From the NCBI GenBank assembly GCA_011389765.1, contig JAABTT010000004.1:1-64000 (forward strand): a stretch of 64,000 bases of DNA, read 5' to 3'. The position numbers and the translations under genes are program-made. The notes under the pieces were generated by a model, which worked only from the letters and a program-made list of their open reading frames with translations, was not told where the DNA came from and ran no database searches. Origin of the DNA: Desulfohalobiaceae bacterium S24 (GTDB lineage Bacteria > Desulfobacterota > Desulfovibrionia > Desulfovibrionales > Desulfothermaceae). Positions 14,590 to 39,025 of the stretch are shown in pieces (the first letter of the stretch is position 1; each line of letters starts with the position of its first letter).

Positions 14590-14637
14590 GCTTGCCTTTA
14601 TTCAGTCAGAGAAAGAAAAAGTTGCTCCTGCAACAGG

Positions 14638-14667
14638 ATTCTACAACGCTCCCCTTCGGATTTTCAA
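14638..14667 (-). promoter_or_regulatory. Sigma70 promoter for plsC-rnj
   Basis: TTGAAA (14662-14667) and TAGAAT (14638-14643) with an 18-base spacer on the minus strand, about 50 bases ahead of the plsC start; the short leader contains GTTGC-AGGA-GCAAC, a small hairpin. Confidence 0.65.
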
Positions 14668-14708
14668 GCAACTAGAAAATTTCACATTTTGGCCCATCGC
14701 CTACACGC

Positions 14709-14738
14709 GCAAAAGCCGCCCGAAGGCGGCTTTTGCAG
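14709..14738 (-). terminator. Terminator after the EF-G-like gene
   Basis: AAAAGCCGCC-TTCG-GGCGGCTTTT: a symmetric stem with a UUCG-type loop and flanking A and T runs, so it can work in both directions. It lies about 80 bases past the EF-G-like stop. Confidence 0.85.
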
Positions 14739-14813
14739 CAGTCCTGGGAGCTAAAGACTTCAAGACCCGCTTTTTCCCACACGCTAGCCCCCTCTGAAGC
14801 GCCGGCAGGAAAA

Positions 14814-22477: not shown

Positions 22478-23119
22478 ATGGAAGAACGAATCGCCATCCA
22501 GGGCCGGGACTACCGCTTTCAGCGCCCCGCAGACCTGGAAACCCTCTGGGAGCAGTTGGATGAACAGGATTTTTGTGCAGACGAACGTCTGCCCTACTGG
22601 GTGGAAATTTGGCCGGCCGGGATTTTTCTGGCCCAATGGATCGCCCGGCAAAAAGACCGTCTCAGCATGGACTGGTGTCTGGATCTTGGCTGCGGTTTAG
22701 GGGTGAGTACCTGTGTGGCTGCAGAATTCACCGGCAGAGCCCTGGGGCTGGATTATGAATTCGCGGCCCTGTCCTATGCCCGCCGAAATGCCGGACTCAA
22801 CGGCTGTGATGCAGCCAATTGGGCCCTTATGGACTGGCGGCGGCCCGGCCTCAAACCAGGAAGTTTTGCTTTTATCTGGGGTGCGGACATCCTGTATGAA
22901 GCCAGATTTTTCCAGCCTCTGGCGCGGATTTTTCAGGAACTGCTGGCCCCCGGCGGAATCATCTGGCTCAGCACCCCGCAGCGCAAGGTCAGCGAGCCTT
23001 TCTGGAATATTCTGGCCCAAAACGACTGGCGGATCTCCCTGCAAGACACAGAACACATCGCCTATAAAACCTACCACATGCAGGTCTATCTCTGGGAAAT
23101 CACAAGGAAAACGCCTTGA
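22478..23119 (+). CDS. Class I SAM-dependent methyltransferase (METTL20/21-like lysine methyltransferase type)
   Basis: The protein of about 213 residues from MEERIAIQG has a SAM-binding glycine loop CLDLGCGLGVST and the LPYWVEIWPAGIFLAQWI stretch upstream of it. This pairing is characteristic of the seven-beta-strand protein-lysine methyltransferase group related to METTL20/METTL21 and of nicotinamide N-methyltransferase relatives. WGADILYE follows as the acidic post-II motif. The substrate cannot be told. The stop overlaps the start of the following permease (TTGA), so the two are co-translated; why a methyltransferase would precede a lone ABC permease is unclear. Confidence 0.8.
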   Translation: MEERIAIQGRDYRFQRPADLETLWEQLDEQDFCADERLPYWVEIWPAGIFLAQWIARQKDRLSMDWCLDLGCGLGVSTCVAAEFTGRALGLDYEFAALSYARRNAGLNGCDAANWALMDWRRPGLKPGSFAFIWGADILYEARFFQPLARIFQELLAPGGIIWLSTPQRKVSEPFWNILAQNDWRISLQDTEHIAYKTYHMQVYLWEITRKTP

Positions 23120-24255
23120 AATCACACGAAAAATCCGCACCGCTTGCGTATTCACCCTTCCGGGAATTCAAGGCCCGGTTTGTGAAAAACAAACCGGCTG
23201 TCAGCGGCCTTGTGGCCTTTGCCCTCTTTTTTTGTGTGGCTGTATCCGGGGCCCTGCTGACCATTGGCGAAGACCCGGTTTTCGATCCTTCTCTGGTCAA
23301 TCTCCAGAACAAACTGCTGCCTCCCCTGAGCCCTCCTGGTCCTGCACTCGACCGGACCGGCCAGCCCCCCCCCTTCGGGATCTATCTCCTGGGAACCGAC
23401 CACCTCGGCCGGGATGTCTTTTCCAGAATGCTGCAGGGGGCCTGGGTTTCTTTGACCGTAGGATTCGTAGCCGTTGGGATTTCCGTATTCGTGGGCATCG
23501 TCCTGGGAGGCCTGGCCGGATATTTCGGACCGATGATCCTGGGAATCAGGACCATGCTGGCCGGAGGCCTGCTTTTGGGAGGCCTGCTGTCGATGGTGAT
23601 CCAATTTCACCTGACGGGCCTGCTAATGATCCTGATCGGGCTCACCTTGATTTTTCTTCTGATACAGACGCGTTTAGACAAAAGGCAGAGCCGGCCGCGC
23701 GGAGCACTCGCCCGGCTTGATCAAAAAGGAATCAGCGTGGATACCCTGATCATGCGTTTTGTGGACATCATGCTCTGTTTTCCGAGCTTTTTTCTTATCT
23801 TAACGGTTATCGCCCTGCTGCCGGCCAGCATCTACAATATCATGATCGTTATCGGCCTGACCAGTTGGATGGGCACCGCCCGTTTTGTGCGGGCCGAATT
23901 TCTCTCCCTCAGGGAGCAGGACTTTGTGGTGGCGGTCAAGGCCCTGGGGGTCAGCAATACCCGGATCATCTTCAGGCATATGCTGCCCAATGCCGTGGCC
24001 CCGGTTCTGGTCTCAGCCACCATCGGCATCGCCACCGCCATTTTAACGGAAGCCGGACTGAGCTTCCTCGGATTCGGCGTTCCGCCCCCCCAGGCCACCT
24101 GGGGCAACATCCTCTCCGAGGGCAAACGCTTCATCTTTGACGCACCCTGGCTGACCCTGATCCCGGGATTGTCCATCCTCATCGTGGTCCTGGCTTTCAA
24201 CCTTTTCGGGGAAGGCCTCAGGGACGCCCTGAACCCACGCCTCAAGGACAGTTAG
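23116..24255 (+). CDS. Peptide-type ABC transporter permease (DppC/OppC-like) with internal insertion
   Basis: Inner-membrane permease of 379 residues. LLGTDHLGRDVFSRMLQGAWVS, the EAA-like loop (VAVKALGVSNTRIIFRHMLPN) and the C-terminal LSFLGFGVPPPQATWG are those of DppC/OppC proteins. Usual members are about 280-300 residues. The surplus is about 70 residues between AGYFG (about 138) and VDTLIMR (about 208), with two extra hydrophobic stretches (about 141-162 and 167-184) and a basic linker. The start is TTG at 23116 with AAGGA eight bases ahead. No partner permease, ATPase or binding protein is adjacent; an ATPase pair without permeases sits at 49.8-51.8 kb. Confidence 0.85.
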   Translation: MKSHEKSAPLAYSPFREFKARFVKNKPAVSGLVAFALFFCVAVSGALLTIGEDPVFDPSLVNLQNKLLPPLSPPGPALDRTGQPPPFGIYLLGTDHLGRDVFSRMLQGAWVSLTVGFVAVGISVFVGIVLGGLAGYFGPMILGIRTMLAGGLLLGGLLSMVIQFHLTGLLMILIGLTLIFLLIQTRLDKRQSRPRGALARLDQKGISVDTLIMRFVDIMLCFPSFFLILTVIALLPASIYNIMIVIGLTSWMGTARFVRAEFLSLREQDFVVAVKALGVSNTRIIFRHMLPNAVAPVLVSATIGIATAILTEAGLSFLGFGVPPPQATWGNILSEGKRFIFDAPWLTLIPGLSILIVVLAFNLFGEGLRDALNPRLKDS

Positions 24256-24273: not shown

Positions 24274-24786
24274 TCAATCCTCGAGCATGGCTTCCGGAAT
24301 CCAGACGCCCAGCTTTTTTCCGCTCTTTTGGCTCACAAAAACCGCAACCCGTCTGGTTTTATTGTTCAGGGCAATTTTCTGCCCTCCGATATTGTCCTCT
24401 CCGATGACCGAATATATTTTGCGCCCTCCGGCCCGGATCGTAAGACCAGCCAGCAACCTGGAGGCAATTCCCTGCCCCCGGTAGGCCGGCTTGACCGAAG
24501 TGTAGCCGCGTTCCAGATAGGTGCTCAGATCAAGTCCGGTCTGTTCTCTGACTGAAGCGGTATACTCCGGTCTGGGCTCCTTGAGGCTCGAACAGGCGAT
24601 GAGATTGTCCTGATCCAGGACATAGCCGACAAGGAAAGCCCGCCAAAGATTGGAGCGAATCCATTCAGAACCGACCGATCCCCCGGCCTCAACAAGTCTG
24701 CAGACGGCATCGAAACACCCCTCCGGAAGATCGGCCGGCGGAGCGTAGGCATACTCCAGGACTGATTGCTGGTCCGGGTGTATCAA
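24274..24786 (-). CDS. GNAT family N-acetyltransferase
   Basis: The 170-residue protein has the GNAT acetyl-CoA loop SVKPAYRGQGIASRLL (RxxGxG/A type) at about 97-112, preceded by a beta-strand with LERGYTSV. Transfers acetyl from acetyl-CoA to an unknown amine. It converges on the permease gene with an 18-base gap. No substrate clue. Confidence 0.8.
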   Translation of the reverse strand: MIHPDQQSVLEYAYAPPADLPEGCFDAVCRLVEAGGSVGSEWIRSNLWRAFLVGYVLDQDNLIACSSLKEPRPEYTASVREQTGLDLSTYLERGYTSVKPAYRGQGIASRLLAGLTIRAGGRKIYSVIGEDNIGGQKIALNNKTRRVAVFVSQKSGKKLGVWIPEAMLED

Positions 24787-24811: not shown

Positions 24812-26308
24812 TCAATTTTTTGAAAACAATTCCGCCATGTTGACGCCTGTGATTCTGTAAATCCGGTTCACAATCCGCCACCGATACAGCGCAAAATACA
24901 GAGGCTTCACCCGCAGCACCCGCAGCAGCAATGCCGCGGGATTCAAAAAAGGTCTCGCTTTCAGGGCTCGATTGACCAGGGCCACGACAAAGGCTTCATG
25001 ATCGATATCCTCCTCCAATTTCCGGAGTGTATTGCGCTGCAGCAAGACCTTTTCAATATAATCATCAGCAATAAACCCGTCATTTTTTGCTCTGTCATAC
25101 AGTTTGCTCCCGGGATAAAACATGAGCTTGTGATCGTAAATTTTCAAGGGAAGCTTTGTCCTGGACAGTTTGCGGTTCTGACGGACCAGCTCATCATAGA
25201 ACAACAGAGAGGCATAGCTGTCCTCGGCTGTTTCATAGGGATTGGAAGAAATCACATCGAGCATGACCCGGACCCCTTTGGCGCTCAGCATACGCAAGCC
25301 TTCCAGAAAGCTATCTTTTTCAAAATGCCTGTCAAAAACGACTTTATTGATCCGGACACTCGCCGACTGGAGGCCGATTTTCAGATAATGGAGTTTGATG
25401 CCGCTTTGCAGAAGGACATCAACTTTTGCTTCGCTGATGCTGTGCATGTGGGCCTGGAGATAAAAAATCGGCAGGTTGATTTTTCGGGCATAGGCCTCAC
25501 ACAGTTGTTTGAAGTCTGATTCGGAACGGAGAAAAAAATCATCATCATCAAAAATCACCCGTTTCAGCTGGGGAAGGCGATTTTTGGCCCGCTCCAGTTC
25601 TTCAATAACCCGCTGGACGGCGATGAATCTGATGGAGGGCCCTTTGCCGGCAAAAGTTTTCTTGAGGCAGCTGTTTAAACAGTAAGAGCAATGATACGGG
25701 CAGCCCCGGACAGAGAGAATGCTGTAGCTCTGGTGTATTTTCCGCATCCCTTCCTGCACCGGAAGCAATTGCCCGTCATCCTGCAAAAAAAAACCGTCCT
25801 CCAGATCCAGGATGGGAAGGGGCCCGGCGTTGACCTCAAGCAGATCCGGCAAGGGATTGCGCTGACCTGACCCATCGCCGGAACGAAAACCGAGTCCCGG
25901 GATGGCTGCGGGATCTTTCCCCTGGAGCAGGTCCTCCAACACCGGCTCGCCTTCTCCAAGGCAGACATAATCCGTGTATTGCAGATAAAATTCAGGATCA
26001 CAGATGACCGGCACGCCCCCCCAGATGATTTTCGCCTCGATCCGTGGCGCAAGATAGGCATGGATCTGGCGCGAGCGGCTTAACTGATGGGTGGTCAAGA
26101 GGGAAATCCCCACCAGAGATGCCTCCCGGCAGCACTCGGCGAGAGATTCCAAACTCTGCCGGGTCAAGAGCTTGAAAACATCATTTTTCCTCCCCTCATA
26201 ATGGACTGTGGTCACCCGGTATCCCTTGGACTTTAAGTGAGAGCTCAAATACCTGAGGGATAAATTTTCGAGGTAGGAGTTATTGATCAATACAAGATCT
26301 TTGTGCAT
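24812..26308 (-). CDS. B12-binding-domain radical SAM protein
   Basis: The protein of about 498 residues has an N-terminal cobalamin-binding-like Rossmann region (about 5-140, LGEGEPVLEDLL typical of the group) and a radical SAM core with the cluster motif GCPYHCSYC (CX3CX2C) at about 208-216. The IGLQSASVRINK stretch and LDVISSNPYET follow, as in tRNA methylthiotransferase/BchE-like halves. It lacks the His ligand context needed to be sure B12 binds. ATG at 26308 with AGGA seven bases ahead is preferred over the TTG two codons upstream. Substrate unknown; no biosynthetic neighbours. Confidence 0.85.
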   Translation of the reverse strand: MHKDLVLINNSYLENLSLRYLSSHLKSKGYRVTTVHYEGRKNDVFKLLTRQSLESLAECCREASLVGISLLTTHQLSRSRQIHAYLAPRIEAKIIWGGVPVICDPEFYLQYTDYVCLGEGEPVLEDLLQGKDPAAIPGLGFRSGDGSGQRNPLPDLLEVNAGPLPILDLEDGFFLQDDGQLLPVQEGMRKIHQSYSILSVRGCPYHCSYCLNSCLKKTFAGKGPSIRFIAVQRVIEELERAKNRLPQLKRVIFDDDDFFLRSESDFKQLCEAYARKINLPIFYLQAHMHSISEAKVDVLLQSGIKLHYLKIGLQSASVRINKVVFDRHFEKDSFLEGLRMLSAKGVRVMLDVISSNPYETAEDSYASLLFYDELVRQNRKLSRTKLPLKIYDHKLMFYPGSKLYDRAKNDGFIADDYIEKVLLQRNTLRKLEEDIDHEAFVVALVNRALKARPFLNPAALLLRVLRVKPLYFALYRWRIVNRIYRITGVNMAELFSKN

Positions 26309-26490
26309 TGGCAAGTCCTGTGCTTACAATCCTGAAAAATAGGAAAGGGGTGAGTTTTCGTCCAAAGGCTCATATAGCAAATTCCGCTTTGACCTTGCAA
26401 GACTCAGGCCTCAACAAATTAGTGATTGCCTGTTTTGGATTTTGCATATAAGCTGTTTCCGTTCAAAGAACCAAAGGACACGGTTTCAAA

Positions 26491-26603: not shown

Positions 26604-27428
26604 ATGCTATTGCTCAGCAAGCCTTTCTTTTTGGTCCCTGCCCTGATCTTGAGTTTGTTATCCGTCCTTTTTCTGAGTCCGGCCTTGGCCGAGAGGAAAA
26701 AAACCTTCACCAATTCTCTGGGAATGGAATTTGTCCTGCTTGAATCGGGCAGCTTCATGATGGGCAGCCCTGAAGATGAACCCTATCGTCATGAGAGTGA
26801 AACCAGGCATAAAGAAGAAATTTCCAAAGACTTTTACATGCAGACTACAGAGGTGACCCTGGGCCAGTGGTGGGCGATCATGGGCAAAAAATGGTTCTTC
26901 GCCAGAGAAGGACCGGAAGACCTTCCGGTGACCAAGGTCTCCTGGCATGACTGCCAGAGTTTTATCAGCAAGCTGAACCGCAAAACAGAAGGGACCTATC
27001 GGCTTCCCACCGAGAAGGAATGGGAATATGCCTGTCGGGCCGGAACAACCACAGCCTACTGTTTCGGCGAGGAACTCGAGTGCTCCCAGGCCATGTTCAA
27101 CAATAATACGCTGAAGGCAAAGCAGTGTATCCCATACGTTCGATCACGTGGACTGGAGGTCAACCGGCCTGCCCCGGTCAAGAGCTATCCGCCCAATCCC
27201 TGGGGGCTCTATGACATGCACGGCAATGTCTGGGAATGGTGTCAGGACTGCTTTGGGAACTCCACCTCCCTTGTCAGCCGCGGGACTTTTGATTGCAGCC
27301 GGAGAGTCCGTCGAGGAGGGAGCTGGTATAAATACGATTATTCCTGCCGCTCAGCCAACCGGGCCTATGCCCATCCCTCGGCGAAACTCAAGACCACGGG
27401 CTTCAGACTGGTGAAGGAGGCCCCCTGA
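26604..27428 (+). CDS. Secreted formylglycine-generating-enzyme (SUMF1/FGE-sulfatase) domain protein
   Basis: The 274-residue protein starts with a signal peptide (cleavage likely after ALA, about residue 27) and is otherwise one FGE-sulfatase domain: NSLGMEFVLLESGSFMMGS, YRLPTEKEWEYACRAG, NPWGLYDMHGNVWEWCQD and a closing RSANRAY...GFRLV. The paired active-site cysteines of true formylglycine-generating enzymes are not evident; only SCRSANR has a Cys in that area, so it may be a non-catalytic relative (as in EgtB, PvdO or NirV-like proteins). The start at 26604 has GGAGG five bases ahead. It overlaps the next gene by one base (TGATG), implying a joint function. Confidence 0.85.
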   Translation: MLLLSKPFFLVPALILSLLSVLFLSPALAERKKTFTNSLGMEFVLLESGSFMMGSPEDEPYRHESETRHKEEISKDFYMQTTEVTLGQWWAIMGKKWFFAREGPEDLPVTKVSWHDCQSFISKLNRKTEGTYRLPTEKEWEYACRAGTTTAYCFGEELECSQAMFNNNTLKAKQCIPYVRSRGLEVNRPAPVKSYPPNPWGLYDMHGNVWEWCQDCFGNSTSLVSRGTFDCSRRVRRGGSWYKYDYSCRSANRAYAHPSAKLKTTGFRLVKEAP

Positions 27429-30400
27429 TGCGCCAACACCTGCTCAGGTGGCTCAAGCTCAACGAAGAAGAAATCGCTCTTTTTCTCTGGACCGCGGCCC
27501 TGCTTTTCCTGGTGCGCAGTTCCGGCATGCTGCTCAACAATTATGCCGAGACCACTTTTTTAAAACGCTTCGGGGTTGAGTATCTACCCATCGTAAACAT
27601 GCTCAACTCCTTAGCCACTTTTTTCGTAACCGGGGTCCTGGCGGTCTTTATGGCCAAACTGTCCGGGGCCAGGCTCCTCTCCTACCTCTTCATCTTCTGC
27701 GGGCTTACGATCACGGGCATTCGTCTGCTCATTCCCTATGGATATGAAATCATCTACCCCATCCTCTTCATGCTCAAAAGCCAGTTCGAGCTTCTTCAAG
27801 CCCTGCTGTTCTGGAATCTGGCCAATGACCTCTTCAACACCAGACAGTCAAAAAGAATCTTTCCCCTCTTGACCGCCGGCGGGGTTATCGGGCTCATCAT
27901 CGGGAGCTTTGCAACGCCCTATATGGCCAAGACTCTGAGATTCGACAACCTGCTTTTTGTCTATCTGCTAACCACACTACTGGGCGCCCTGGTGGTCAAA
28001 GGCATGAGCCTCCATCTTTCCGTGCTGGTCCGGGCCGAAAAAAAGGGCAAAAACCGGGGCAAGCGGACCCCGATGCTGGAAGAATTCAAAAAAATCATCC
28101 CTCTGCTCAAGGAATCGGCCCTGCTCAAAATCGTGCTCATTCTGACCTTTATGCCCAATGTGGTCGTGCCGATCATGAATTATCAATTCAACTTTGCCAT
28201 TAATGAATATTTTGCCAGTGAGTCCGGCATGATCGGTTTTTTCGGATACTTCCGAGGCGTGCTGAACATCATCAGCTTGATCGTCCTCCTGTTCGTGGGC
28301 CGGCTCTACGGCCGCTTTGGTTTGCCGGTGGCCCTGATGTTTCACCCTTTTAACTACATGATCGCCTTTATGGCCTTTCTGCTTCGCTTCGACATTTTTT
28401 CGGCCATGTACGCCAGGATGTCCACCAATATCCTTAGGACAACCATCAATATGCCGGCCAGTTCCATTCTCATCGGTCTGTTCCCGGAATCCTACCGCGC
28501 CATGATCAGACCTTTCCTCAGAGGAACAGTCGTAAGAATGGGCCTCTTTCTCGGTTCAGGCCTCATCCTCGCCTCAAACACGCTTTTTGACCCACGCTAT
28601 CTGAGCCTCGTGGCCCTTCCCTTTGTTCTGGCCTGGCTGATCGCCCCTTTTCTCCTCAAAAAAAATTATGCCTCCATTCTCATGGACTTGATCTCCAAAA
28701 ACATGCTCGACTTGAAAGGCCTGGAGGAAAACAATCTCGGGAATCTTTTCAAGAAGGATCGCGTCGGCGATGAATTGAGGCAATCCTTTCTCAAAGCCAC
28801 GGGGAAAGACACCCTCTGGTATGCCCGGCTTTTGAAAAACCTGGACCTCAAGGATCTCGACCAGCTCATTTTGCAAACGATACACCGCCAGGACGTGCAG
28901 ACCCAAATCCAGCTGCTGAAAATGCTCTCTGAACAACCGCAAAGCGACACTCTTCCCACTCTCCAAAACATGCTCGATCCAAACAAGCCCGCCTTGACGG
29001 TTGCAGTGCTCAAAGTCCTCAAACGGCTGGCCGCTGAAGACAGGATCTCACTTGATCTCTCGTCCTATCTCCGCGACCCCCATCCAGAGGTGCGCGGCCA
29101 TGCGGCAGGCTGCCTGTATGCCCGGTCCGATGAAAGCATGGATCCTCTTATCGAGTCCTGGCTGAATTCCAAAGACATTTCAGAACGGCGGGCCGGGGTC
29201 ATAGCATCTGGGGCAAGCGGTGAAGCCTCCTACATTTCCAAACTGGAGGATTTACTGCAGCAGAACGCCAATGAAGCCATTGCCGGGGACATTCTCCAGG
29301 CACTGGCCAAGCTCGAAGACCCGAACCTCAATAAGCAGGCCCTGGCCTTTCTCGACCACTCCCAGATTGAAATCCGGAAATCTGCTTTACGAGTACTTGA
29401 AATCACAGATGAAAATATCTTAAACAGGGCTATTCAGCACCTTGGCGATTCGGTAGAGGCGGTTCGAGAGCTGGCCAAAGAAAAGATCAAAGATGCTTCC
29501 TATCTCAACGGCCAGACTCTGATCGAATCTTTGAGCCGGCCGAATCACAGGCTCCGGGACGCGCTGTTCGAGCTCCTGGAAGATCTGGAGATTAAAAATT
29601 TGGACCTGTTCCGCTTCACCAAAAAGGATTTGGAACAAGCCTATCTCTGTCTGGCCAAGGCCCTGGCTCTGGAACAGGTGATCCCTGAATCCCAGCCCCG
29701 GGAACTGCTTCGACAGCATCTGCTGGAGAAAAAAAATCTCCTCGTGGAGAACATTTTCCGGGTTCTGGCGATTCATGACCAAGACCAACAGATGCGGACC
29801 GTGTTCAGGGGGCTTTTTTCTCTGGATCCACGCCATCAAGCCAACAGCATCGAACTCCTGAGCGACATCATGGACACGAAGACCTTTAACATGGTCCTGC
29901 CGCTGATTGAAAGCTCCTCGCAGAAGGAAGCCCTCTATGCCGGAAAAAAATTCTTTAAAATTCCAAATCTTGAGACTGATGCCACGCAACTCTTTACAGC
30001 GCTGCTTGTGCATGAAGACTGGCTGGAAGTTCTCCTGGCCCTGGAAATTCTGAGCCATGAGCCTGAGAGGCGCCCGGGACTGGAGTCCACGATTCAGGAG
30101 CTGCAGTCCTCGCCCAAGGTTTTCATACGCCGGCCGGCATTGAAAATTTCAGACCCAGGTCAGCGCGGGCTTGACTCAAAGGAGCACATCATGGATACTG
30201 AGATGCCTATTGTTGAGAAGATACTGCTTGTAAAAAATATCGCCATCTTTTCCGGTCTGAATGTCAGCGAACTCGGGGCCATCGCCGCCGTCACCGAAGA
30301 GGTCGACTTTGCTGAAGGGGAAACCGTGATCCAGGAGGGCGAGCCCGGTGAAAAAGTTTTTCTGATCATTTCCGGGGAGGTTTCGGTTTTCAAAACCCAG

Positions 30401-30649
30401 GAAAATAACAAACAGATTCAACTGGATACCATGGGATCAGGAAATTATTTCGGTGAGATGGCGCTTTTCGAGGAGGCAGCCCGATCAGCGAGCATTCAAA
30501 CCCTAAAACAGTCCCGGTTTCTCGTTCTGCACAAACAAGAATTCAATGAAATCGTCAGGGAATATCCACGGATAGCCCTGCAGATCTGTGCCGCCTTGAG
30601 CCACCGGCTCCGAAATTTGCAATCGAAATTAACCCAGACCGGCGAATAG
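27428..30649 (+). CDS. Nucleotide-transporter-like membrane protein fused to HEAT repeats and a cyclic-nucleotide-binding domain
   Basis: A 1073-residue fusion. Residues about 15-430 are a dozen membrane helices resembling the ATP/ADP carrier (NTT/Npt) branch, with FNTRQSKRIFPLLTAGGVIG as a recognisable stretch. Residues about 460-910 are soluble and helix-rich with HEAT-like repeats (LRDPHPEVRGHAAGCL, LGDSVEAVRELAKEKI). Residues about 925-1060 are a Crp-type cNMP-binding domain with FGEMALFEEAARSAS, including the Arg that contacts the cyclic phosphate. There is no DNA-binding domain. Transport of a nucleotide or other anion gated by cNMP is a fair inference; substrate is unproven. Coupled to the FGE-domain gene; gshB follows 22 bases later. 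Confidence 0.85.
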   Translation: MRQHLLRWLKLNEEEIALFLWTAALLFLVRSSGMLLNNYAETTFLKRFGVEYLPIVNMLNSLATFFVTGVLAVFMAKLSGARLLSYLFIFCGLTITGIRLLIPYGYEIIYPILFMLKSQFELLQALLFWNLANDLFNTRQSKRIFPLLTAGGVIGLIIGSFATPYMAKTLRFDNLLFVYLLTTLLGALVVKGMSLHLSVLVRAEKKGKNRGKRTPMLEEFKKIIPLLKESALLKIVLILTFMPNVVVPIMNYQFNFAINEYFASESGMIGFFGYFRGVLNIISLIVLLFVGRLYGRFGLPVALMFHPFNYMIAFMAFLLRFDIFSAMYARMSTNILRTTINMPASSILIGLFPESYRAMIRPFLRGTVVRMGLFLGSGLILASNTLFDPRYLSLVALPFVLAWLIAPFLLKKNYASILMDLISKNMLDLKGLEENNLGNLFKKDRVGDELRQSFLKATGKDTLWYARLLKNLDLKDLDQLILQTIHRQDVQTQIQLLKMLSEQPQSDTLPTLQNMLDPNKPALTVAVLKVLKRLAAEDRISLDLSSYLRDPHPEVRGHAAGCLYARSDESMDPLIESWLNSKDISERRAGVIASGASGEASYISKLEDLLQQNANEAIAGDILQALAKLEDPNLNKQALAFLDHSQIEIRKSALRVLEITDENILNRAIQHLGDSVEAVRELAKEKIKDASYLNGQTLIESLSRPNHRLRDALFELLEDLEIKNLDLFRFTKKDLEQAYLCLAKALALEQVIPESQPRELLRQHLLEKKNLLVENIFRVLAIHDQDQQMRTVFRGLFSLDPRHQANSIELLSDIMDTKTFNMVLPLIESSSQKEALYAGKKFFKIPNLETDATQLFTALLVHEDWLEVLLALEILSHEPERRPGLESTIQELQSSPKVFIRRPALKISDPGQRGLDSKEHIMDTEMPIVEKILLVKNIAIFSGLNVSELGAIAAVTEEVDFAEGETVIQEGEPGEKVFLIISGEVSVFKTQENNKQIQLDTMGSGNYFGEMALFEEAARSASIQTLKQSRFLVLHKQEFNEIVREYPRIALQICAALSHRLRNLQSKLTQTGE

Positions 30650-30671: not shown

Positions 30672-31700
30672 ATGCAAATAGCTTTTGTCATGGACTGGCT
30701 CGAAGGGATTGATCCCCATTTTGAGACCACGGCTGCTTTGATGTATGAATGCAATCAGCGTGGGCACTCGATTTTTTTTCTCGAGCCGCATGACATTTAT
30801 ACCAGACAGCAGAAAATCGTGGCCCGGATGAAAGAAATTACTGTCGCCCGGGATCTTCCCCTGAAACACTATTGGGAGGAGATCATGATCCACGCCAAAA
30901 AGGATACCTTAAGCTTTGAAACCCTCACCGAATTGGACGCCCTGTTTCTGCGCAAGGACCCTCCCCTGAATTATAGATCAATGGAACTTCTGGCGCCCAT
31001 TCGGGATCAGGTTTTCATGATTAATAACCCCAGCGGCATGATCCTTGGAAACAGCAAACTCTACATTCTCAATTTTCCGGATCTCATCCCTGAGACCCAT
31101 ATTTCCAGAGACCCGCCCCGTCTGCGAAAAATCATCGACACCTTCGGCGGGGACATGGTCATTAAACCTCTGGGCAGGTTCGGCGGCCAGGGCATCATTA
31201 AAGTCAGCACCAAGGATCCGGAAAACCTCAATTCGTTGATCAACTATTATGTAGGAGCCCACAAAAGCTATGCGGACCGGGAACAGATCATGGTTCAGGA
31301 GTACATCAAAACCGTGAAAGACCAGGGGGATGTCCGAATTCTCCTGTTCAACGGCGAAATCCTCGGAGCCATGCGCCGCAAGCCTCCGGACGGAAGTTTC
31401 AGGACAAATATCCATGCCGGCGGAAAGGCGTATAAACACACAATCAGTCCCAAGGAAAGAGAGGTCTGCAAAAAAATCCAGTCCCGGTTGAAGCAGGACG
31501 GATTGTATTTTGTCGGTCTGGATTTGATTGACGGACAATTGATTGAAGTCAATTGCGTCAGTCCCGGGGGAATTCCCCGGATCAACAGCTTGAATAAAAT
31601 CAGGATTGAAGGCCGGATCATGGATTTCGTCGAAAAAAAAGTCCGGGAGAACCACAACCCGCCTTTTGAATCGAGCAAGGCAAGGTCCGCTTATGCCTGA
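30672..31700 (+). CDS. gshB: Glutathione synthetase (prokaryotic GshB type)
   Basis: ATP-grasp ligase joining gamma-glutamylcysteine and glycine. The 342-residue protein follows E. coli GshB (316 residues) along its length: IAFVMDWLEGIDPHFETT, LRKDPPLNYRS, MVIKPLGRFGGQGI, QEYIKTVKDQGDVRILL and the metal-binding LIEVNCVSPGGIPRIN. An extra charged tail of about 20 residues ends the protein. No gshA is seen in the window. It sits just behind the transporter/HEAT/cNMP gene and 133 bases ahead of the peptide transporter. Confidence 0.93.
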   Translation: MQIAFVMDWLEGIDPHFETTAALMYECNQRGHSIFFLEPHDIYTRQQKIVARMKEITVARDLPLKHYWEEIMIHAKKDTLSFETLTELDALFLRKDPPLNYRSMELLAPIRDQVFMINNPSGMILGNSKLYILNFPDLIPETHISRDPPRLRKIIDTFGGDMVIKPLGRFGGQGIIKVSTKDPENLNSLINYYVGAHKSYADREQIMVQEYIKTVKDQGDVRILLFNGEILGAMRRKPPDGSFRTNIHAGGKAYKHTISPKEREVCKKIQSRLKQDGLYFVGLDLIDGQLIEVNCVSPGGIPRINSLNKIRIEGRIMDFVEKKVRENHNPPFESSKARSAYA

Positions 31701-31832
31701 AAAAAATCCGCAAAACACAGTAGGATGCCAGTGAGCAAACATGAACCCTCTATGAAATATCCTCAGGCCCTTCTTTTTTTTAAATCCACAAACGCAATTC
31801 CCAGTTCTAAAAGTCTGGCTATGGAGGTATTC

Positions 31833-33539
31833 ATGAGACACCAGTTGTATCGGGCCTTTTTTGCCGCCGCCTTTTTGCTGCTTTGGTTTGGTCCAGGGAT
31901 ATCGGCCTGGGCCCAGGACTCAACCCTTCGGATCGGCATTTCCGAAGAACCCCGGACCTTGAACATCTGGCTGGCCAGCGACGCCAATTCCAGAAAAGTC
32001 CTGTCCTTGATTTATCAACCTTTGTACAACCGGGATCCGGAAACCCTCAGGATTTCGCCCTGGCTTGCAGAATCCCTTCCTGAATACGACCCGGAGACCG
32101 TCTCCTATACCGTGAAGCTCAGACCGGCCAAATGGGCCGACGGCTCCGATGTCACGGCCGACGATGTCGTGTTCACGGTCAATCTTATCCAAAAATTCAA
32201 AGTCCCCCGCTACTATTCCAAGTGGTCCTTTGTCCGCGAAGTCAAAGCTGTGGACAAGCGAACCGTCCGCTTCTTTCTCAAAGAACCCAAAGCGATTTTT
32301 GCCACCCGGACCCTGATCAATTACATCGTCTCCCGCAAGGAATGGGAGCCATTGGCCAAAAAAGCCGAGACCCAGGAAAAACCTCTGACCGCCCTGCTCA
32401 ACACCAAAGTGGATCATCCTCTGGGTTGCGGTCCCTTTGTTTTAGAAGAATGGAGGGAGGGGACCTCCCTATATCTGAAAAAGAATCCCCATTTTTTTGG
32501 ACAGGGGCAAAGCATCAACCAGCGGAAACTCGGGCCTCATGTGGACAAAATCCTCTTCAAGATTTACGGGACCGCTGATGTGGCGATCCTGGGGCTGAAG
32601 AAAGGGAAGATCGATTTCCTGTGGTGGGCGATCCAGCCCGGGTATCTCGAGGGCCTCAAGGATGACGAGAAGGTCAAGGTCTTTCTCAGTGAAAAGAGCG
32701 CCTTGTATTTCATGGGCTACAATGTCCGGAAAGAGCCTTTTTCCGATCCTGTCCTACGCCGGGCCACGGCTACGCTCATTGACAATAATTTTTTCGTCAA
32801 GCGCGTGCTCCAGGGATATGCCAGCCGTATGGATTCCATCGTCCCGGCGGAAAACAGTTTCTGGCATGCCGGCAATCTTCCGGACTACGGTCAGGGGCTG
32901 AGCAGGGCGGAGCGGATCCGCAAGGCCTCGGCCCTGCTCAGGGAAAAGGGATACAGCTGGGACACCCCGCCTGTGGATGATTCCGGGGAGATTCAGACCC
33001 CCTCTTCCATCCGGCTGCCCAACGGCCGGCCCATGCAAAAATTTGTGATCTTGACCCCCCCGGCGGATTATGACCCGAACCGGGCCACCTGCGGGCTCAT
33101 GATCCAGGAATGGCTCAACGGAATCGGGGTGCCGGCTATCGCCAGACCCATGTCCTTCGGGGCCCTGCTGCAAACCGTCAAAGGGAATCATGAGTTCGAT
33201 GCCTTTATCCTGGGATACGGCCGCCTGTCTCTAGATCCCGACTATCTGCGAAGTTTTTTCCACTCCTCCAACGACAAGTCCAGAGGCTGGAACATGAGCG
33301 GCTACCGCAACCCTGAATTCGACCGTTTGGCCGAAGCCTCGGTCTCGGCCATGGATCCTGACAAACGTCAGGATCTCATTCACAAAATGCAGCAGATCGT
33401 GATGCGGGATGTACCGTATATCCCCCTCTACAAGCCCCAGGTCATTGAAGCCGTGAGCCGGCAATTTACCGGCTGGGAGCAGATGGTCGGGGGAATCGGC
33501 AATATCTGGTCCCTCTGCCGGGTCAAGCCGGTGGACTAG
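31833..33539 (+). CDS. Peptide-type ABC transporter substrate-binding protein (SBP family 5)
   Basis: Periplasmic binding protein of 568 residues from MRHQLYRAFF, with a signal peptide ending WAQ (about residue 28). LRIGISEEPRTLNIWLASD, the WADGSDVTADDVVFT motif and MGYNVRKEPFSDPVLRRA are hallmarks of DppA/OppA-type proteins. The ligand could be peptides, nickel or sugars. GGAGG five bases ahead of the ATG at 31833 decides the start; the frame is open 36 codons further upstream. First gene of a complete transporter operon with the two permeases and two ATPases that follow. Confidence 0.93.
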   Translation: MRHQLYRAFFAAAFLLLWFGPGISAWAQDSTLRIGISEEPRTLNIWLASDANSRKVLSLIYQPLYNRDPETLRISPWLAESLPEYDPETVSYTVKLRPAKWADGSDVTADDVVFTVNLIQKFKVPRYYSKWSFVREVKAVDKRTVRFFLKEPKAIFATRTLINYIVSRKEWEPLAKKAETQEKPLTALLNTKVDHPLGCGPFVLEEWREGTSLYLKKNPHFFGQGQSINQRKLGPHVDKILFKIYGTADVAILGLKKGKIDFLWWAIQPGYLEGLKDDEKVKVFLSEKSALYFMGYNVRKEPFSDPVLRRATATLIDNNFFVKRVLQGYASRMDSIVPAENSFWHAGNLPDYGQGLSRAERIRKASALLREKGYSWDTPPVDDSGEIQTPSSIRLPNGRPMQKFVILTPPADYDPNRATCGLMIQEWLNGIGVPAIARPMSFGALLQTVKGNHEFDAFILGYGRLSLDPDYLRSFFHSSNDKSRGWNMSGYRNPEFDRLAEASVSAMDPDKRQDLIHKMQQIVMRDVPYIPLYKPQVIEAVSRQFTGWEQMVGGIGNIWSLCRVKPVD

Positions 33540-33580
33540 GCGAGTAATTATTTGACGTTTTGCTGTGTTTCTTTGCATTG

Positions 33581-33643
33581 TTCAGGTGTCTGGTTTCAGC
33601 CCTGCCAGCGGCCGGCGCTGACAACCGAGACCCGACACCTGAA
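33581..33643. repeat. Inverted repeat in the spacer between binding protein and permease
   Basis: TTCAGGTGTCTGG (33581-33593) and CCCGACACCTGAA (33631-33643) can pair with one mismatch to make a 13-base stem around 37 bases. It lies in the 149-base gap of the operon. A stem here could lower permease expression relative to the binding protein, as often found in ABC operons. Related GTGTCGG-TTTCAG words occur near 58917-58936 and 61011-61027. Confidence 0.5.
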
Positions 33644-33688
33644 ACCTCGATACCTGCTGGACCATCAGTTGCCTAAGGTCGCCTGCTT

Positions 33689-34666
33689 ATGAGCCTCCAG
33701 AAACTCATTATTCGCAGATCATTGGAGATACTGGTCATCTTCTTCGTGATTCTCTCCGGCCTGTTTCTCCTCTTTCATCTGGCACCCGGTGATCCGGTCT
33801 CCAGGATGGTCGACCCGACCATGACCCCTGAAGACGCGGAACTTTTGGTGTCTCAACTCGGACTCGACCAGCCCCTCTGGCTGCAGTACGTCTATTATGT
33901 CAAAAACTTCTTCACCGGCAACTTCGGGGTTTCCTTCCATTACGGCCGCCCTGTAGTCGAGGTGATTGGAGAACGCCTGCCCAACACGATCCTGCTCTTC
34001 ACGTCTTCTGTGATTTTGTCGGCTCTCGCCGGAATTTTCTGGGGAAAAATGGTGGCCTGGCACAAAGGCAAACCAGTGGACACCTGGGTGACCATCATCT
34101 CCCTGGTCTGTCATACCTTGTTTCTTCCCTGGATCGCCCTGCTCTTTATTTGGATCTTTGCCTATAAGATCGGAGGATTCCCTTTAAACGGGATGATCTC
34201 CCCGGAATTGTGGATGGACCCCGATTCCGGCATCTTCCTGAAAACCTTGGACATCATGCACCATATGCTGCTGCCGCTCTTGACCCTGTTTATCATCCAT
34301 GTCGGCTCCTACCTGCTGATCATGCGCAGCAGCATGCTGGAAACTCTGAGTGAAGACTACATCCTGACGGCCAGGGCCAAAGGCTTGAATGAAAAACAGA
34401 TCCGCAACCGCCACGCCGGACCCAATGCCTCCCTGCCCGTGGTCACCAGTGTCGGTTTGAGTCTGGCCTTTTCCATCAACGGGGGGGCCTTGACCGAAAC
34501 CGTCTTTACCTGGCCCGGCATCGGCCGGGAGTTGATCTTTGCCGTGAGCAACAATGACTATCCCCTGGCCCTGGCCTCTTTTTTGTTCATTTCCATTGTC
34601 GTGTTGATTGCCAACCTGGTGGTTGACGTGCTGTATGCCTTTCTGGATCCGCGGATTCGTTATTAA
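33689..34666 (+). CDS. Peptide-type ABC transporter permease (DppB/OppB-like)
   Basis: Inner-membrane permease, 325 residues and six predicted helices. FHLAPGDPVSRM near the N-terminus, LGLDQPLWLQYVYYVKNFFTGNFGVS, the coupling loop (TARAKGLNEKQIRNRHAGPNA) that docks on the ATPases, and the ending DVLYAFLDPRIRY are typical of DppB. Partner of the following DppC-like gene. Confidence 0.93.
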   Translation: MSLQKLIIRRSLEILVIFFVILSGLFLLFHLAPGDPVSRMVDPTMTPEDAELLVSQLGLDQPLWLQYVYYVKNFFTGNFGVSFHYGRPVVEVIGERLPNTILLFTSSVILSALAGIFWGKMVAWHKGKPVDTWVTIISLVCHTLFLPWIALLFIWIFAYKIGGFPLNGMISPELWMDPDSGIFLKTLDIMHHMLLPLLTLFIIHVGSYLLIMRSSMLETLSEDYILTARAKGLNEKQIRNRHAGPNASLPVVTSVGLSLAFSINGGALTETVFTWPGIGRELIFAVSNNDYPLALASFLFISIVVLIANLVVDVLYAFLDPRIRY

Positions 34667-34718
34667 GCTTCACTAAAGGGTCGTTCCGGAGTCTGTCAAA
34701 CTCGAGCCACATCAACTT

Positions 34719-35633
34719 ATGAGCAAAGAAACCCGCAGTCAAAAATCCTACACATGGCAACGATTTCTTGAAGGCTGGTCCCTGTTTTATGAAAACCTGG
34801 TGGGACGGATAGGGCTGATTCTCCTGCTTGTCTTCGGTCTCATGGCGGTCTGCAGCTACATCCCCCCCCTGATCGATCCCATGTACCATCCCATGACCGG
34901 GGTCGATCCGGATGTTTTCCGCTCCACGCCGCCGAGTGCCGCGCATTGGCTGGGAACGGACAATATCGGCCGGGATCTCTTGAGCCAGTTGCTGACCGGC
35001 GCCAGAATCGCCTTTCTGGTAGGCATCTCGGCAGCATTCATGAGCATTGTTTTCGGGACCCTGATCGGCATGATCGCCGGATATGCCGGAAGACTGACCG
35101 ACTCCCTGCTCATGCGCTTTGCGGATATGATCATGGTCATGCCCTCACTGCTCGTCGTCCTGCTTTTGTCTTCCCTGTTCGGACAATTGAATATCTGGAT
35201 CATCGTCCTGCTCATCGCCCTGTTCCGCTGGCCCGGCATCTCCCGGGTGATCAGGGCCCAGACCCTGTCCCTCAAGGAGCGGCCGTTCATTGATACGGCC
35301 CGGGTTGCCGGGGCCTCGAATCTGCGTATCATTTTCAGGCACATCCTGCCTAATGTCCTGCCCATGGCCCTGTTGTACATGACCTTCCGGGTTACCTCGG
35401 CCATCATAGTGGAAGCGGCTCTGGCCTTTCTGGGGTTCGGAGATCCGAACACCGTGAGTTGGGGAATGATGCTGCAGTGGGTCTGGAAAACCGGGCATAT
35501 GTTCCAGGCCCCCTACTGGCTGCTGCCCCCGGGCATCTGCATCTCTTTGATCACCCTGGCCTTTTACATGATAGGCCGGGCCATGGAGGAAGTTCTGGAT
35601 CCCAGACTGCGCAAGGAGGAACAAAAAGTTTAA
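34719..35633 (+). CDS. Peptide-type ABC transporter permease (DppC/OppC-like)
   Basis: Second permease, 304 residues. HWLGTDNIGRDLLSQLLTGARIA, AGYAGRLTDSLLMRFADMIM, the coupling loop (DTARVAGASNLRIIFRHILPN) and the LAFLGFGDPNTVSWGMML ending give DppC. Unlike the orphan permease at 23116, it has no insertion between the GYAG and DSLLMR blocks. Its stop is immediately followed by the ATG of the first ATPase. Confidence 0.94.
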   Translation: MSKETRSQKSYTWQRFLEGWSLFYENLVGRIGLILLLVFGLMAVCSYIPPLIDPMYHPMTGVDPDVFRSTPPSAAHWLGTDNIGRDLLSQLLTGARIAFLVGISAAFMSIVFGTLIGMIAGYAGRLTDSLLMRFADMIMVMPSLLVVLLLSSLFGQLNIWIIVLLIALFRWPGISRVIRAQTLSLKERPFIDTARVAGASNLRIIFRHILPNVLPMALLYMTFRVTSAIIVEAALAFLGFGDPNTVSWGMMLQWVWKTGHMFQAPYWLLPPGICISLITLAFYMIGRAMEEVLDPRLRKEEQKV

Positions 35634-36596
35634 ATGACACTCCTACAGGTCAACAACCTCAGCATTGCCTACCAGACCAGGACAGGGACCGCCCTGGCCG
35701 TGGACGATGTCTCCTTTGCCCTGGATAAGGGAAAATCCCTGGGGATAGTCGGGGAATCCGGCTGCGGCAAAACCACCATCGGAATGGGGCTGCTTCGTTT
35801 ACTCCCGGACAATGCGCTGATCAAACAGGGGGCAGTCCTGTTTAAGGGCTCCGATATTCTCGAGTTTTCAACTGCGGCCTTGCAGGATCTGCGCTGGAAA
35901 AAAATTTCCATGATTTTCCAGGCGGCCATGAACGCCTGGAATCCGGTCCAGAGGGTCGGCGATCAGATCATTGAAGCCATTCGGATTCACGACCCTGGTA
36001 TTTCACGGGACAAAGCCAAGCTCGAAGTGGAAAAACTCTACGAAATGGTGGACATTCCAACAAACCGTATTTTTGATTATCCCCATGAATACAGCGGCGG
36101 CATGAAGCAGCGGGCGATCATCGCCATGGCTCTCTCCTGTCGGCCCGACCTGATCATTGCCGATGAGCCGTCCACGGCCCTGGATGTCATTGTCCAGGAC
36201 CAAATCATAAAAAAAATCAAAGCAATACAAAAAAAGTTCAACATCGCCATCATCTTCATCTCCCACGATATCGGAGTGGTGGCCGACGTCTGCCACGATA
36301 TCATGGTCATGTACAAGGGCCGAATCGTGGAAACCGGCAAACGTGAAGAAGTCTTTGTTGAACCGGTCCATCCCTACACCAAGTCCCTCCTGTCTTCCTA
36401 CTTGACCCTGGACGGGGTCTTGGAATTTCAAAATGAATCTGCTCCCAAGAGCTGCCTCACATCTACGGACCAAGCTCCCGGAACCTGCGGCTTCCTCCCG
36501 AACTGTCCGCAGGCTGAGCCTTCCTGTGCAAGCGAAGCGCCGCAGTGGCAGGCAATAAGCGAGACGCACAAGGCCCTGTGCCGATTCTGCAAATAA
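35634..36596 (+). CDS. Peptide-type ABC transporter ATPase (DppD/OppD-like)
   Basis: Cytoplasmic ATP-hydrolysing subunit, 320 residues. Walker A is GESGCGKTT at about 40-48, the signature is YSGGMKQR, Walker B is LIIADEPSTALD, and the switch His is in FISHDIG. The C-terminal oligopeptide-transporter extension carries several Cys (CGFLPNC, CASEAP, CRFCK), like the iron-sulfur-binding tails of DppD-type ATPases. It starts on the base after the permease stop. Confidence 0.95.
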   Translation: MTLLQVNNLSIAYQTRTGTALAVDDVSFALDKGKSLGIVGESGCGKTTIGMGLLRLLPDNALIKQGAVLFKGSDILEFSTAALQDLRWKKISMIFQAAMNAWNPVQRVGDQIIEAIRIHDPGISRDKAKLEVEKLYEMVDIPTNRIFDYPHEYSGGMKQRAIIAMALSCRPDLIIADEPSTALDVIVQDQIIKKIKAIQKKFNIAIIFISHDIGVVADVCHDIMVMYKGRIVETGKREEVFVEPVHPYTKSLLSSYLTLDGVLEFQNESAPKSCLTSTDQAPGTCGFLPNCPQAEPSCASEAPQWQAISETHKALCRFCK

Positions 36597-36610
36597 TGAA
36601 AGGACAAGAG

Positions 36611-37447
36611 ATGTCAAGCTCAAGCCGATCACCGATTCTCCAGGTGGAGGACCTCCTCAAGACCTATCGAACTGATCGCTCCCTGATCAAAAGATCAAGC
36701 GTCAAATTGACGGCTGTGAACCGGATTTCTCTGGAGATCGAAAGAGGCGAATTTTTCGGTCTGGTCGGGGCCAGCGGTAGCGGAAAGACCACTTTGGGAC
36801 GGCTCATCCTCAAGCTGGAACCATTTGACGCCGGATCAATCCGCTTCAATGACCTCCAGATCCATGGGCTCAAGGGCTCCAAACTGAAAGCCTTCCGGCG
36901 CCAGATCCAGCTGATCCCCCAGGATCCCTATCAGTCCCTGAACCCCTATCTCTCGGTTTTCGACACCATCGCCGAGCCATTGATCATCCATAGAATGGGG
37001 AATCCCGGGGAGCGAAAGGTCCGCGCCAGAGACGCTTTGGAGGCGGCCGGCTTGAGTCCGGCGGATGATTTTTTCCCGCGTTATCCGCATCAACTCAGCG
37101 GAGGACAGCGGCAGCGGGCGGCTATTGCCCGGGCTATGGTCCTGAAACCCGAATTTGTGGTCGCTGATGAACCGACTTCAATGCTGGATGCCAGCATCTC
37201 TTTCACCATCTTCAAACTCCTGTCCGAAATCCAGAAGCAAAAAAAGGTGACCTTTTTGTTCATCACCCATGATCTGGCTGCGGCTCGCTTCCTCTGCAAC
37301 CGGATCGCGGTCATCAATCAGGGTGAAATCGTGGAGAGCGGTCCCACCCTCGATATCATCGAAAACCCGCAAACAGAGTACACCAAATCGCTGATCCAGG
37401 CCCAACCTTCCTTCAGCTTTGCCCAAAAGGCGGCTGCCGCCACCTGA
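36611..37447 (+). CDS. Peptide-type ABC transporter ATPase (DppF/OppF-like)
   Basis: Second ATPase, 278 residues from MSSSSRSPILQ. Walker A GASGSGKTT, signature LSGGQRQR, Walker B FVVADEPTSMLD and switch FITHDL are intact. It is shorter than the usual 310-330-residue DppF because the C-terminal Cys-containing extension is missing: the protein ends soon after the TEYTKSLIQAQP stretch. AAGGA ahead of the ATG at 36611 is the best ribosome site; the frame is open further upstream, overlapping the previous gene. Confidence 0.92.
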   Translation: MSSSSRSPILQVEDLLKTYRTDRSLIKRSSVKLTAVNRISLEIERGEFFGLVGASGSGKTTLGRLILKLEPFDAGSIRFNDLQIHGLKGSKLKAFRRQIQLIPQDPYQSLNPYLSVFDTIAEPLIIHRMGNPGERKVRARDALEAAGLSPADDFFPRYPHQLSGGQRQRAAIARAMVLKPEFVVADEPTSMLDASISFTIFKLLSEIQKQKKVTFLFITHDLAAARFLCNRIAVINQGEIVESGPTLDIIENPQTEYTKSLIQAQPSFSFAQKAAAAT

Positions 37448-37978: not shown

Positions 37979-39025
37979 ATGAACAGAAGAGGCGTCCCTT
38001 ACAAAGAAGCCGGAGTGGACCTGGAGTCTGCCGCAAGCCTGGTCCAGCGCATCAAACCCATTGCGGAAAAAACCTACACCAAAGGGGCCGTGACGAACAT
38101 CGGTCTTTTTGCCGGGATGTTCAAACCCGATCTCCAGGGCATGTCCAGACCCTTGCTGGTTTCCTCCACCGACGGGGTGGGCACCAAGCTCAAACTGGCC
38201 TTTGAACTGGACAAACACGACAGCATCGGCATCGATCTGGTGGGCATGAATGTCAACGACATCGTGGTTCATGGAGCCCAGCCCCTGTTTTTCCTGGATT
38301 ATCTCGCCGTGGATCAGTTGCGCCTGGACCAGGCCGAAGCCATCATTACGGGCATCGCCGAAGGCTGCAAGCAGGCCCAGTGCTCGCTCCTCGGCGGCGA
38401 AACAGCTGAAATGCCCGGTTTCTATGCCCCGAATGAATATGATCTCTCGGGATTCTGCGTTGGCCTGGTCGACGAATCCAATGTGATCGACGGCTCCAAT
38501 ATCGGGATCAACAACTCAGTGATTGGCTTGGCTGCATCAGGCCCCCATTCAAACGGCTACTCCCTGATCCGGAAAATACTCAAGCAAAACGGAGCGCAGC
38601 TCGAGCAGACTCTTCCGGGAAGCAGCCAGACCATCGGCCAGGCCTTGATGGAGCCAACCCGGATCTACGTGAAAAGCATTCTCAATGTCATCCGGGATTT
38701 TGAAATCCGGGGGATGGCCCACATCACCGGAGGCGGATTCTACGACAACCTGCCCAGGATACTGCCCAACGGGGTCCAGGCAGAGATCTATTTCCCCAGT
38801 TGGCCCAAAGCACCGATCTTTGCATGGCTGCAAGAGCAGGGCGGCCTGTCCTGGCAGGAAATGCTGCAGACTTTCAACTGCGGCATCGGTATGGTGCTCG
38901 TTTGTTCGAAACGGCAGACCGGAGACATCCTGCAGCGGCTCAAGGCCCTGGGCCAGGAAGCCTGGCTGATCGGCAAAGTGACCTCCGGCGAGGAAGGGCA
39001 GGAGCAGGTGCAGATCCAGTTTTAG
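37979..39025 (+). CDS. purM: Phosphoribosylformylglycinamidine cyclo-ligase (AIR synthetase)
   Basis: Fifth step of purine synthesis: ATP-dependent ring closure of FGAM to AIR. The 348-residue protein begins VPYKEAGVDLESA and has SSTDGVGTKLKLA, GMNVNDIVVHGAQPLFFLDY, GGETAEMPGFY and HITGGGFYDNLPRILP, as in E. coli PurM (345). GAGG ahead of the ATG supports the start. Convergent with mnmG, overlapping it by four bases. No other pur gene is near. Confidence 0.97.
   Translation: MNRRGVPYKEAGVDLESAASLVQRIKPIAEKTYTKGAVTNIGLFAGMFKPDLQGMSRPLLVSSTDGVGTKLKLAFELDKHDSIGIDLVGMNVNDIVVHGAQPLFFLDYLAVDQLRLDQAEAIITGIAEGCKQAQCSLLGGETAEMPGFYAPNEYDLSGFCVGLVDESNVIDGSNIGINNSVIGLAASGPHSNGYSLIRKILKQNGAQLEQTLPGSSQTIGQALMEPTRIYVKSILNVIRDFEIRGMAHITGGGFYDNLPRILPNGVQAEIYFPSWPKAPIFAWLQEQGGLSWQEMLQTFNCGIGMVLVCSKRQTGDILQRLKALGQEAWLIGKVTSGEEGQEQVQIQF

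Follow-up and report, generated by a model that had tools for sequence, protein, structure and literature searches.

In a 64,000-nucleotide stretch of contig JAABTT010000004.1 of Desulfohalobiaceae bacterium S24 (GenBank assembly GCA_011389765.1; hereafter the window), whose nearest named relatives are metagenome-assembled genomes of the Desulfohalobiaceae, we analyzed two overlapping genes. The first encodes a secreted protein with the fold of the formylglycine-generating enzyme (FGE, or SUMF1). The second is an intact open reading frame (ORF) in which a carrier domain of the nucleotide transporter (NTT) family is followed by a HEAT-repeat region and a cyclic-nucleotide-binding (cNMP-binding) domain (cNBD). 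A reading made from the sequence alone had proposed this layout and these domains, with a gshB gene following after 22 bases, and the coordinates of all three ORFs were confirmed. The features of the pair are as follows.

26604..27428, + strand: secreted FGE/SUMF1-fold protein, 274 amino acids (Pfam PF03781, 6e-51)
27428..30649, + strand: NTT-HEAT-cNBD fusion, 1073 amino acids, intact ORF (Pfam; AlphaFold2 model)
27464..28663, + strand: NTT-fold carrier domain, residues 13-412 of the fusion (PDB profile matches, Foldseek, hhalign)
28727..30217, + strand: HEAT-repeat region, residues 434-930 (PF13646; helical repeats in the model)
30230..30646, + strand: cNMP-binding domain, residues 935-1073 (PF00027, 1.7e-22)

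The start codon of the fusion gene, which shares one base with the stop codon of the FGE gene (TGATG), is preceded by an AGGAGG ribosome site. The fusion matches, from the N- to the C-terminus, the Pfam families TLC/NTT (PF03219, 8e-7), HEAT_2 (2e-13) and cNMP_binding (1.7e-22). A direct phmmer search of the PDB with the NTT domain gave no match, and a profile built from 40 homologues was needed. This profile matched the solved ATP/ADP carriers 9j3n (3e-18), which we take to be the Chlamydia pneumoniae protein, and 9j3j from the Arabidopsis chloroplast (1.7e-17). The AlphaFold2 model of the 1073-residue fusion (mean predicted local distance difference test score (pLDDT) 83.9, predicted template modelling score (pTM) 0.59) contains 12 long helices in residues 13-412 and places the HEAT region and the cNBD on the cytoplasmic side. 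Foldseek superimposed the model on ATP-bound AtNTT1 (9j3l) with a target template modelling score (TM-score) of 0.74. Because both the profile matches to solved carriers and the fold match agree, the NTT identity of the carrier domain is correct.

ATP transport by AtNTT1 depends critically on residues K155, E245, E385 and K527, of which K155 and K527 have been linked to the binding of ADP and ATP (PMC3306366, PMC10654386). Their spacing identified the four as residues 71, 161, 301 and 443 of the 9j3j chain, all of the expected type, and we aligned the columns by hmmsearch and hhalign, which agreed within one residue. The corresponding residues in the window are N57, S118, N251 and L373 or F374. 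All four charges that mark an ATP/ADP-exchanging NTT are therefore replaced, indicating from sequence that the substrate site is remodelled and that ATP/ADP exchange is not the expected activity. N57, S/A118 and N251 are conserved across the close family of the carrier, while some of the 118 and 251 columns are still acidic in its most distant relatives. The strictly conserved polar residues in the carrier core of the close family are N57, K117, Q119, N251, Q253, R361, R365 and R370. Taken together, the data suggest that the NTT branch of the window carrier has left nucleotide exchange.

The cNMP-binding domain is related to PKG, PKA and CRP by sequence, and to CRP by fold too. It carries the phosphate-cassette Glu and Arg of Crp-type cNMP-binding domains: E1010 (30455-30457), R1019 (30482-30484) and the following S1020 are invariant in all 14 relatives compared. 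The sequence-only reading had pointed to the retained Arg and had taken a loss of pocket residues as its refutation; no such loss was seen. No DNA-binding domain lies C-terminal of the cNMP domain. At loci L115-L117 and L119 of our survey (described below) the cNBD is a separate gene behind an NTT-HEAT gene.

The FGE-domain protein has a hydrophobic N-terminus ending in PALA, a Sec signal without a lipobox Cys. Its closest solved relative by sequence is PvdO (PDB 5hha, 5.5e-25), which is also the top Foldseek match of its model (pLDDT 79; E 2.4e-16, TM-score 0.71), although its score of 110 bits does not reach the cut-off of 500 bits for the NCBIfam PvdO equivalog. The signal and the PvdO-like fold agree with the periplasmic partner that had been proposed. 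The annotation as a sulfatase-modifying-factor-domain protein holds at the level of the Pfam domain, but the copper-binding, formylglycine-forming pair of catalytic cysteines is absent: K or some other residue occupies the first position, and only 9 of 29 homologues have Cys at the second. The conserved cysteines are instead C160, C175 and C213. Since the catalytic pair is missing, we rejected an assignment as a formylglycine-generating enzyme.

To place the pair in context, we scanned GTDB species genomes, which gave 35 loci, mostly from Desulfobacterales, and the phylum, which gave 40 more, and calculated a maximum-likelihood tree from 76 NTT domains. The fusion of a membrane carrier to a cyclic-nucleotide sensor is present in sulphate-reducing bacteria. 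A same-strand FGE gene directly upstream of the carrier characterises a single clade of 37 rows (support 100/100), in which it is found at 33 of the 35 loci with visible upstream DNA. The one-base stop/start overlap occurs in 28 of 34 listed loci. Homologous pairs keep this gene order and overlap at ~50% protein identity, and the layout is thus not due to chance. Across 395 Desulfobacterota genomes, the carrier (E<1e-89, 27 genomes) is present in 18 of the 19 genomes with a close FGE homologue (E<1e-78), where ~1.3 would be expected (naive Fisher p 1.5e-23, ignoring phylogeny). Although the two genes co-occur in this way, they are unlinked in 13 of the 18, being separated by more than 400 kb in G379 and G332, whose genomes are single contigs, as well as on contig C1 of G112. 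Separation in related genomes was the outcome that the sequence-only reading had named against itself, and it does exclude an obligate operon. The adjacency is therefore a derived arrangement, yet a functional link between the FGE protein and the carrier is likely. At L129 (12134-13099) and L133 (5524-6435), an FGE homologue (~50% identity) is convergent with a deep-branch NTT-HEAT-cNBD gene, 25-170 bases away, which suggests that the association is older or arose repeatedly.

Two kinds of class III cyclase adjoin the carrier in relatives, one directly upstream of the FGE gene on the same strand and the other convergent downstream. These cyclases are membrane/HAMP receptors. Of the 23 FGE-clade loci with good flanks, 13 have a class III cyclase no more than 6 kb away. 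Desulfosarcina alkanivorans PL12 (L060), a cultivable member, has the FGE, carrier and cyclase genes in one place. In six of eight whole genomes a class III cyclase lies within 6 kb of the carrier, compared to ~0.03 expected for each from a background of 65 domains in ~36 Mb (1.8 per Mb), a figure that is descriptive and not a test, as four of the eight genomes were chosen after the neighbourhood had been seen. The upstream cyclases have the purine-specifying pair E-G (8/8) and both metal Asp residues (8/8), and lack the adenylyl-type K-D pair. E-G is the pair of the guanylyl cyclase Cya2 (PMC4215837). With Glu at site 1, a residue other than Asp at site 2 and the metal Asp, the upstream cyclases of the relatives are predicted to be guanylyl cyclases. 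The downstream cyclases have a Q-A pair (5/5), which assigns no substrate. The occurrence of class III cyclases beside the carrier in many relatives gives independent support to the cyclic-nucleotide part of the earlier proposal, a cyclic-nucleotide-gated nucleotide transporter; nucleotides as the cargo, in the known form, are unlikely given the four lost charges.

The genes flanking the pair in the window are as follows.

24274..24786, − strand: GNAT acetyltransferase (hidden Markov model score 262 bits)
24812..26314, − strand: B12-binding radical SAM protein, adjoining the GNAT gene (PF04055, PF02310)
30672..31700, + strand: gshB-like ATP-grasp ligase (PF02955, 2.9e-51)
31725..37447, + strand: Opp-type ABC importer, comprising a family 5 substrate-binding protein (SBP), OppB, OppC, OppD and OppF (Pfam)

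The radical SAM and GNAT genes lie upstream of the FGE gene on the opposite strand, and the same pair is present in L056 (radical SAM 13629-15065, 54% identity). A 719-residue protein in L049 (13036-15195) has a C-terminal GNAT domain and an N-terminal part that resembles B12-radical SAM proteins by eye, joining what are separate neighbours in the window. On the other side, the 22 bases between the fusion stop codon and the gshB start were confirmed, and the Opp-type importer comes next. The gshB-like ligase scores above the cut-off of NF003573 (276.7 vs 272) and below that of TIGR01380 (250.7 vs 299).

These genes belong to a recurring set made up of a GNAT, a RimK-like ATP-grasp, a PP-loop protein, a gshB-like ATP-grasp and an Opp SBP. 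At least one member lies within 6 kb in 43 of the 56 loci of the enclosing clade (support 99/99) and in none of the 20 loci outside it. Within the enclosing clade, 27 loci have the gshB-like gene and 19 the SBP within 6 kb, and 29 have a GNAT beside the carrier; in L124, L126 and L127, GNAT and PP-loop genes come immediately after the carrier, in the same orientation. The window genome splits the set between two places: the window has the GNAT, gshB and Opp genes, and contig C1 has ATP-grasp, PP-loop, radical SAM and class III cyclase genes together. The C1 cluster (G000:C1:21000-26300; L155 6981-12304), with a cyclase ORF of 532 codons, contains genes that match the surroundings of the carrier in Desulfobacterales. 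We rejected gshB as a fixed third member of the pair. Only in the window, L034, L035, L109 and L058 does it come immediately after the carrier gene, an arrangement peculiar to the window's genus and two other loci; elsewhere it is just nearby.

The PP-loop family (L056 10888-12015 and homologues) has the motifs SGG[MI]DS and NCGxCxKCVRTM and recurs beside GNAT and ATP-grasp genes. The protein had no Pfam, NCBIfam or significant PDB match, and we therefore named it by its SGGxDS motif only. It seems to belong to a biosynthetic pathway not yet described. Loci L051, L053, L054 and L118 form a sister carrier branch without FGE; in L053, L054 and L118 the next gene, in the same orientation as the carrier, encodes a distant PP-loop homologue (~27-31% identity in L053 and L054), and there is an upstream cupin gene in L051 and L053.

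Elsewhere in the window, an orphan OppC-type permease gene (23116-24255), outside the Opp operon at 31725-37447, overlaps a methyltransferase gene and has an apparent insert of extra membrane segments. A SelB-type elongation factor gene (17163-19067) and, 19 kb away, an AIR-synthase-type gene (SelD/HypE/ThiL-like; 37979-39025) raise the possibility of selenoprotein synthesis in the organism.

The computations show the domain layout, the retained pocket residues, the altered NTT site, the translational coupling, the conservation across the clade and the closeness of cyclases. On these we base a tentative reading, to which we give somewhat less than even chances: a cyclic nucleotide would regulate the carrier of the pair, an inner-membrane protein of NTT (MFS-like) fold that would move a solute other than ATP/ADP and is translationally coupled to a partner in the periplasm. 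From these features we infer gating, a transport direction, a substrate, a ligand and a contact with the FGE protein. A class III cyclase, of guanylyl type by its E-G pair in the copy upstream of FGE, would make the cyclic nucleotide. The cytoplasmic cNMP domain would bind it, and the HEAT solenoid would relay the change to the 12-helix carrier. The solute moved would most likely be made by, or feed into, the co-localised GNAT / ATP-grasp / PP-loop / GshB-like set. In the periplasm, the partner of FGE/PvdO fold may bind or tailor this solute, much as PvdO acts on a siderophore. This analogy, together with the ligase set, suggests a peptide-like metabolite as the possible solute. The fuller version, in which a dedicated guanylyl cyclase gates the carrier by cyclic GMP (cGMP) and the ligase set makes a new peptide-like metabolite handled with the FGE-fold periplasmic partner, is unlikely to hold in every part.

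Several points weigh against a cyclic-nucleotide-regulated carrier with a coupled partner. cNBDs frequently bind no ligand or serve as dimerisation units, and we found no published binding or transport data for any NTT-HEAT protein. No cyclase is adjacent to the carrier in the window or its genus. The co-occurrence statistic is blind to phylogeny, the two genes are unlinked in most of the co-occurring genomes, and no members of the gene set were found near the remote FGE genes, except for one SBP5 gene ~6 kb off in L165. The neighbourhood could also be without function, with the fusion and the FGE protein acting independently of each other and the cyclases and gene set lying nearby through common descent. 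In favour of this, adjacency is confined to one clade, and in the 13 genomes with the genes apart, the FGE gene lies away from the gene set. We nevertheless regard this as rather improbable, as translational coupling persists at ~50% protein identity, the two genes co-occur even when unlinked, and FGE genes are convergent with deep-branch carriers in L129 and L133.

Other explanations keep a functional link and change its nature. The clear NTT homology could mean that the domain exchanges nucleotides of the ATP/ADP type and is gated by cyclic AMP (cAMP) reporting the energy state, as has been suggested in print (PMC5381601); the sequence-only reading had likewise proposed a transporter gated by a cyclic nucleotide. 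The host is free-living, however, K155, E245, E385 and K527 all have uncharged counterparts here with N57, S/A118 and N251 conserved instead, and the upstream cyclases show the guanylyl signature and not the adenylyl K-D pair, which makes this explanation quite improbable. The lost transport residues would also fit an NTT domain that serves as a non-transporting membrane sensor or scaffold, with the FGE-fold protein binding a ligand and the HEAT region and cNBD relaying a signal or recruiting partners. HEAT repeats bind proteins, and an FGE-fold protein without the known catalytic cysteines could have a structural role as in PorK/GldK. This is unlikely; the strictly conserved polar residues of the carrier core are as expected for a working translocation path. 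Finally, a class III cyclase combined with a membrane effector bearing a cNMP domain recalls the Pycsar antiphage modules, and PADLOC PycC models match the cyclases while a PycTIR model matches the cNBD. These matches are limited to shared domains, the cyclases are membrane/HAMP receptors, and the genes track vertical clades and the biosynthetic gene set. Moreover, cyclase and carrier are not adjacent in the window genome, lying on contigs C1 and C72, respectively. A Pycsar-like module is thus very improbable.

To our knowledge, NTT-HEAT-cNBD proteins are widespread and uncharacterised. Few targets of bacterial cGMP signalling are known, and the testable guanylyl-cyclase link is the most interesting point of the locus, which brings together candidates for the cyclase, the effector and the substrate pathway that can be tested jointly. 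SLC9C1 (8pd9), a cAMP-binding Na+/H+ exchanger that appeared in the Foldseek list, is similar in outline, with a cNMP domain at the cytoplasmic C-terminus of a secondary carrier. Its TM-score to the window fusion is ~0.1, indicating no overall homology, and SLC9C1 has an unrelated carrier fold, a voltage sensor and no HEAT region. The plastid and parasite ATP/ADP carriers, AtNTT1 (9j3j, 9j3l) and that of Chlamydia pneumoniae (9j3n), share fold and sequence homology with the window carrier, whereas the window fusion has the four charges replaced and gains the HEAT and cNBD domains. PvdO, a periplasmic enzyme of pyoverdine maturation, is a secreted FGE-fold protein like the window protein, but no pyoverdine genes were seen around the window gene. 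The Synechocystis guanylyl cyclase Cya2 has the E-G pair in common with the upstream cyclases, which, unlike Cya2, are membrane-anchored and adjoin a carrier with a cNMP domain.

Closest of all are the NTT-HEAT-cNBD fusions of free-living bacteria, including Deltaproteobacteria, described by Major, Embley and Williams in 2017, who speculated on cAMP control of ATP uptake (PMC5381601). The window fusion has the same three domains in the same order and belongs to this family, so that the view of the sequence-only reading that no such system had been described does not stand. A cNBD encoded by a separate following gene is likewise present both in bacteria of that study and in L115-L117 and L119. 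The main text of Major et al. is silent on an FGE partner, on cyclase genes next to the carrier, on the gene set and on the loss of the charged residues (PMC5381601), and neither the FGE-NTT pair nor the link to cyclases was described in the literature that we searched. Thus, the fusion itself is known, and what is new beyond the 2017 study is the FGE partner, the proximity of cyclases, and the altered transport site together with the gene set.

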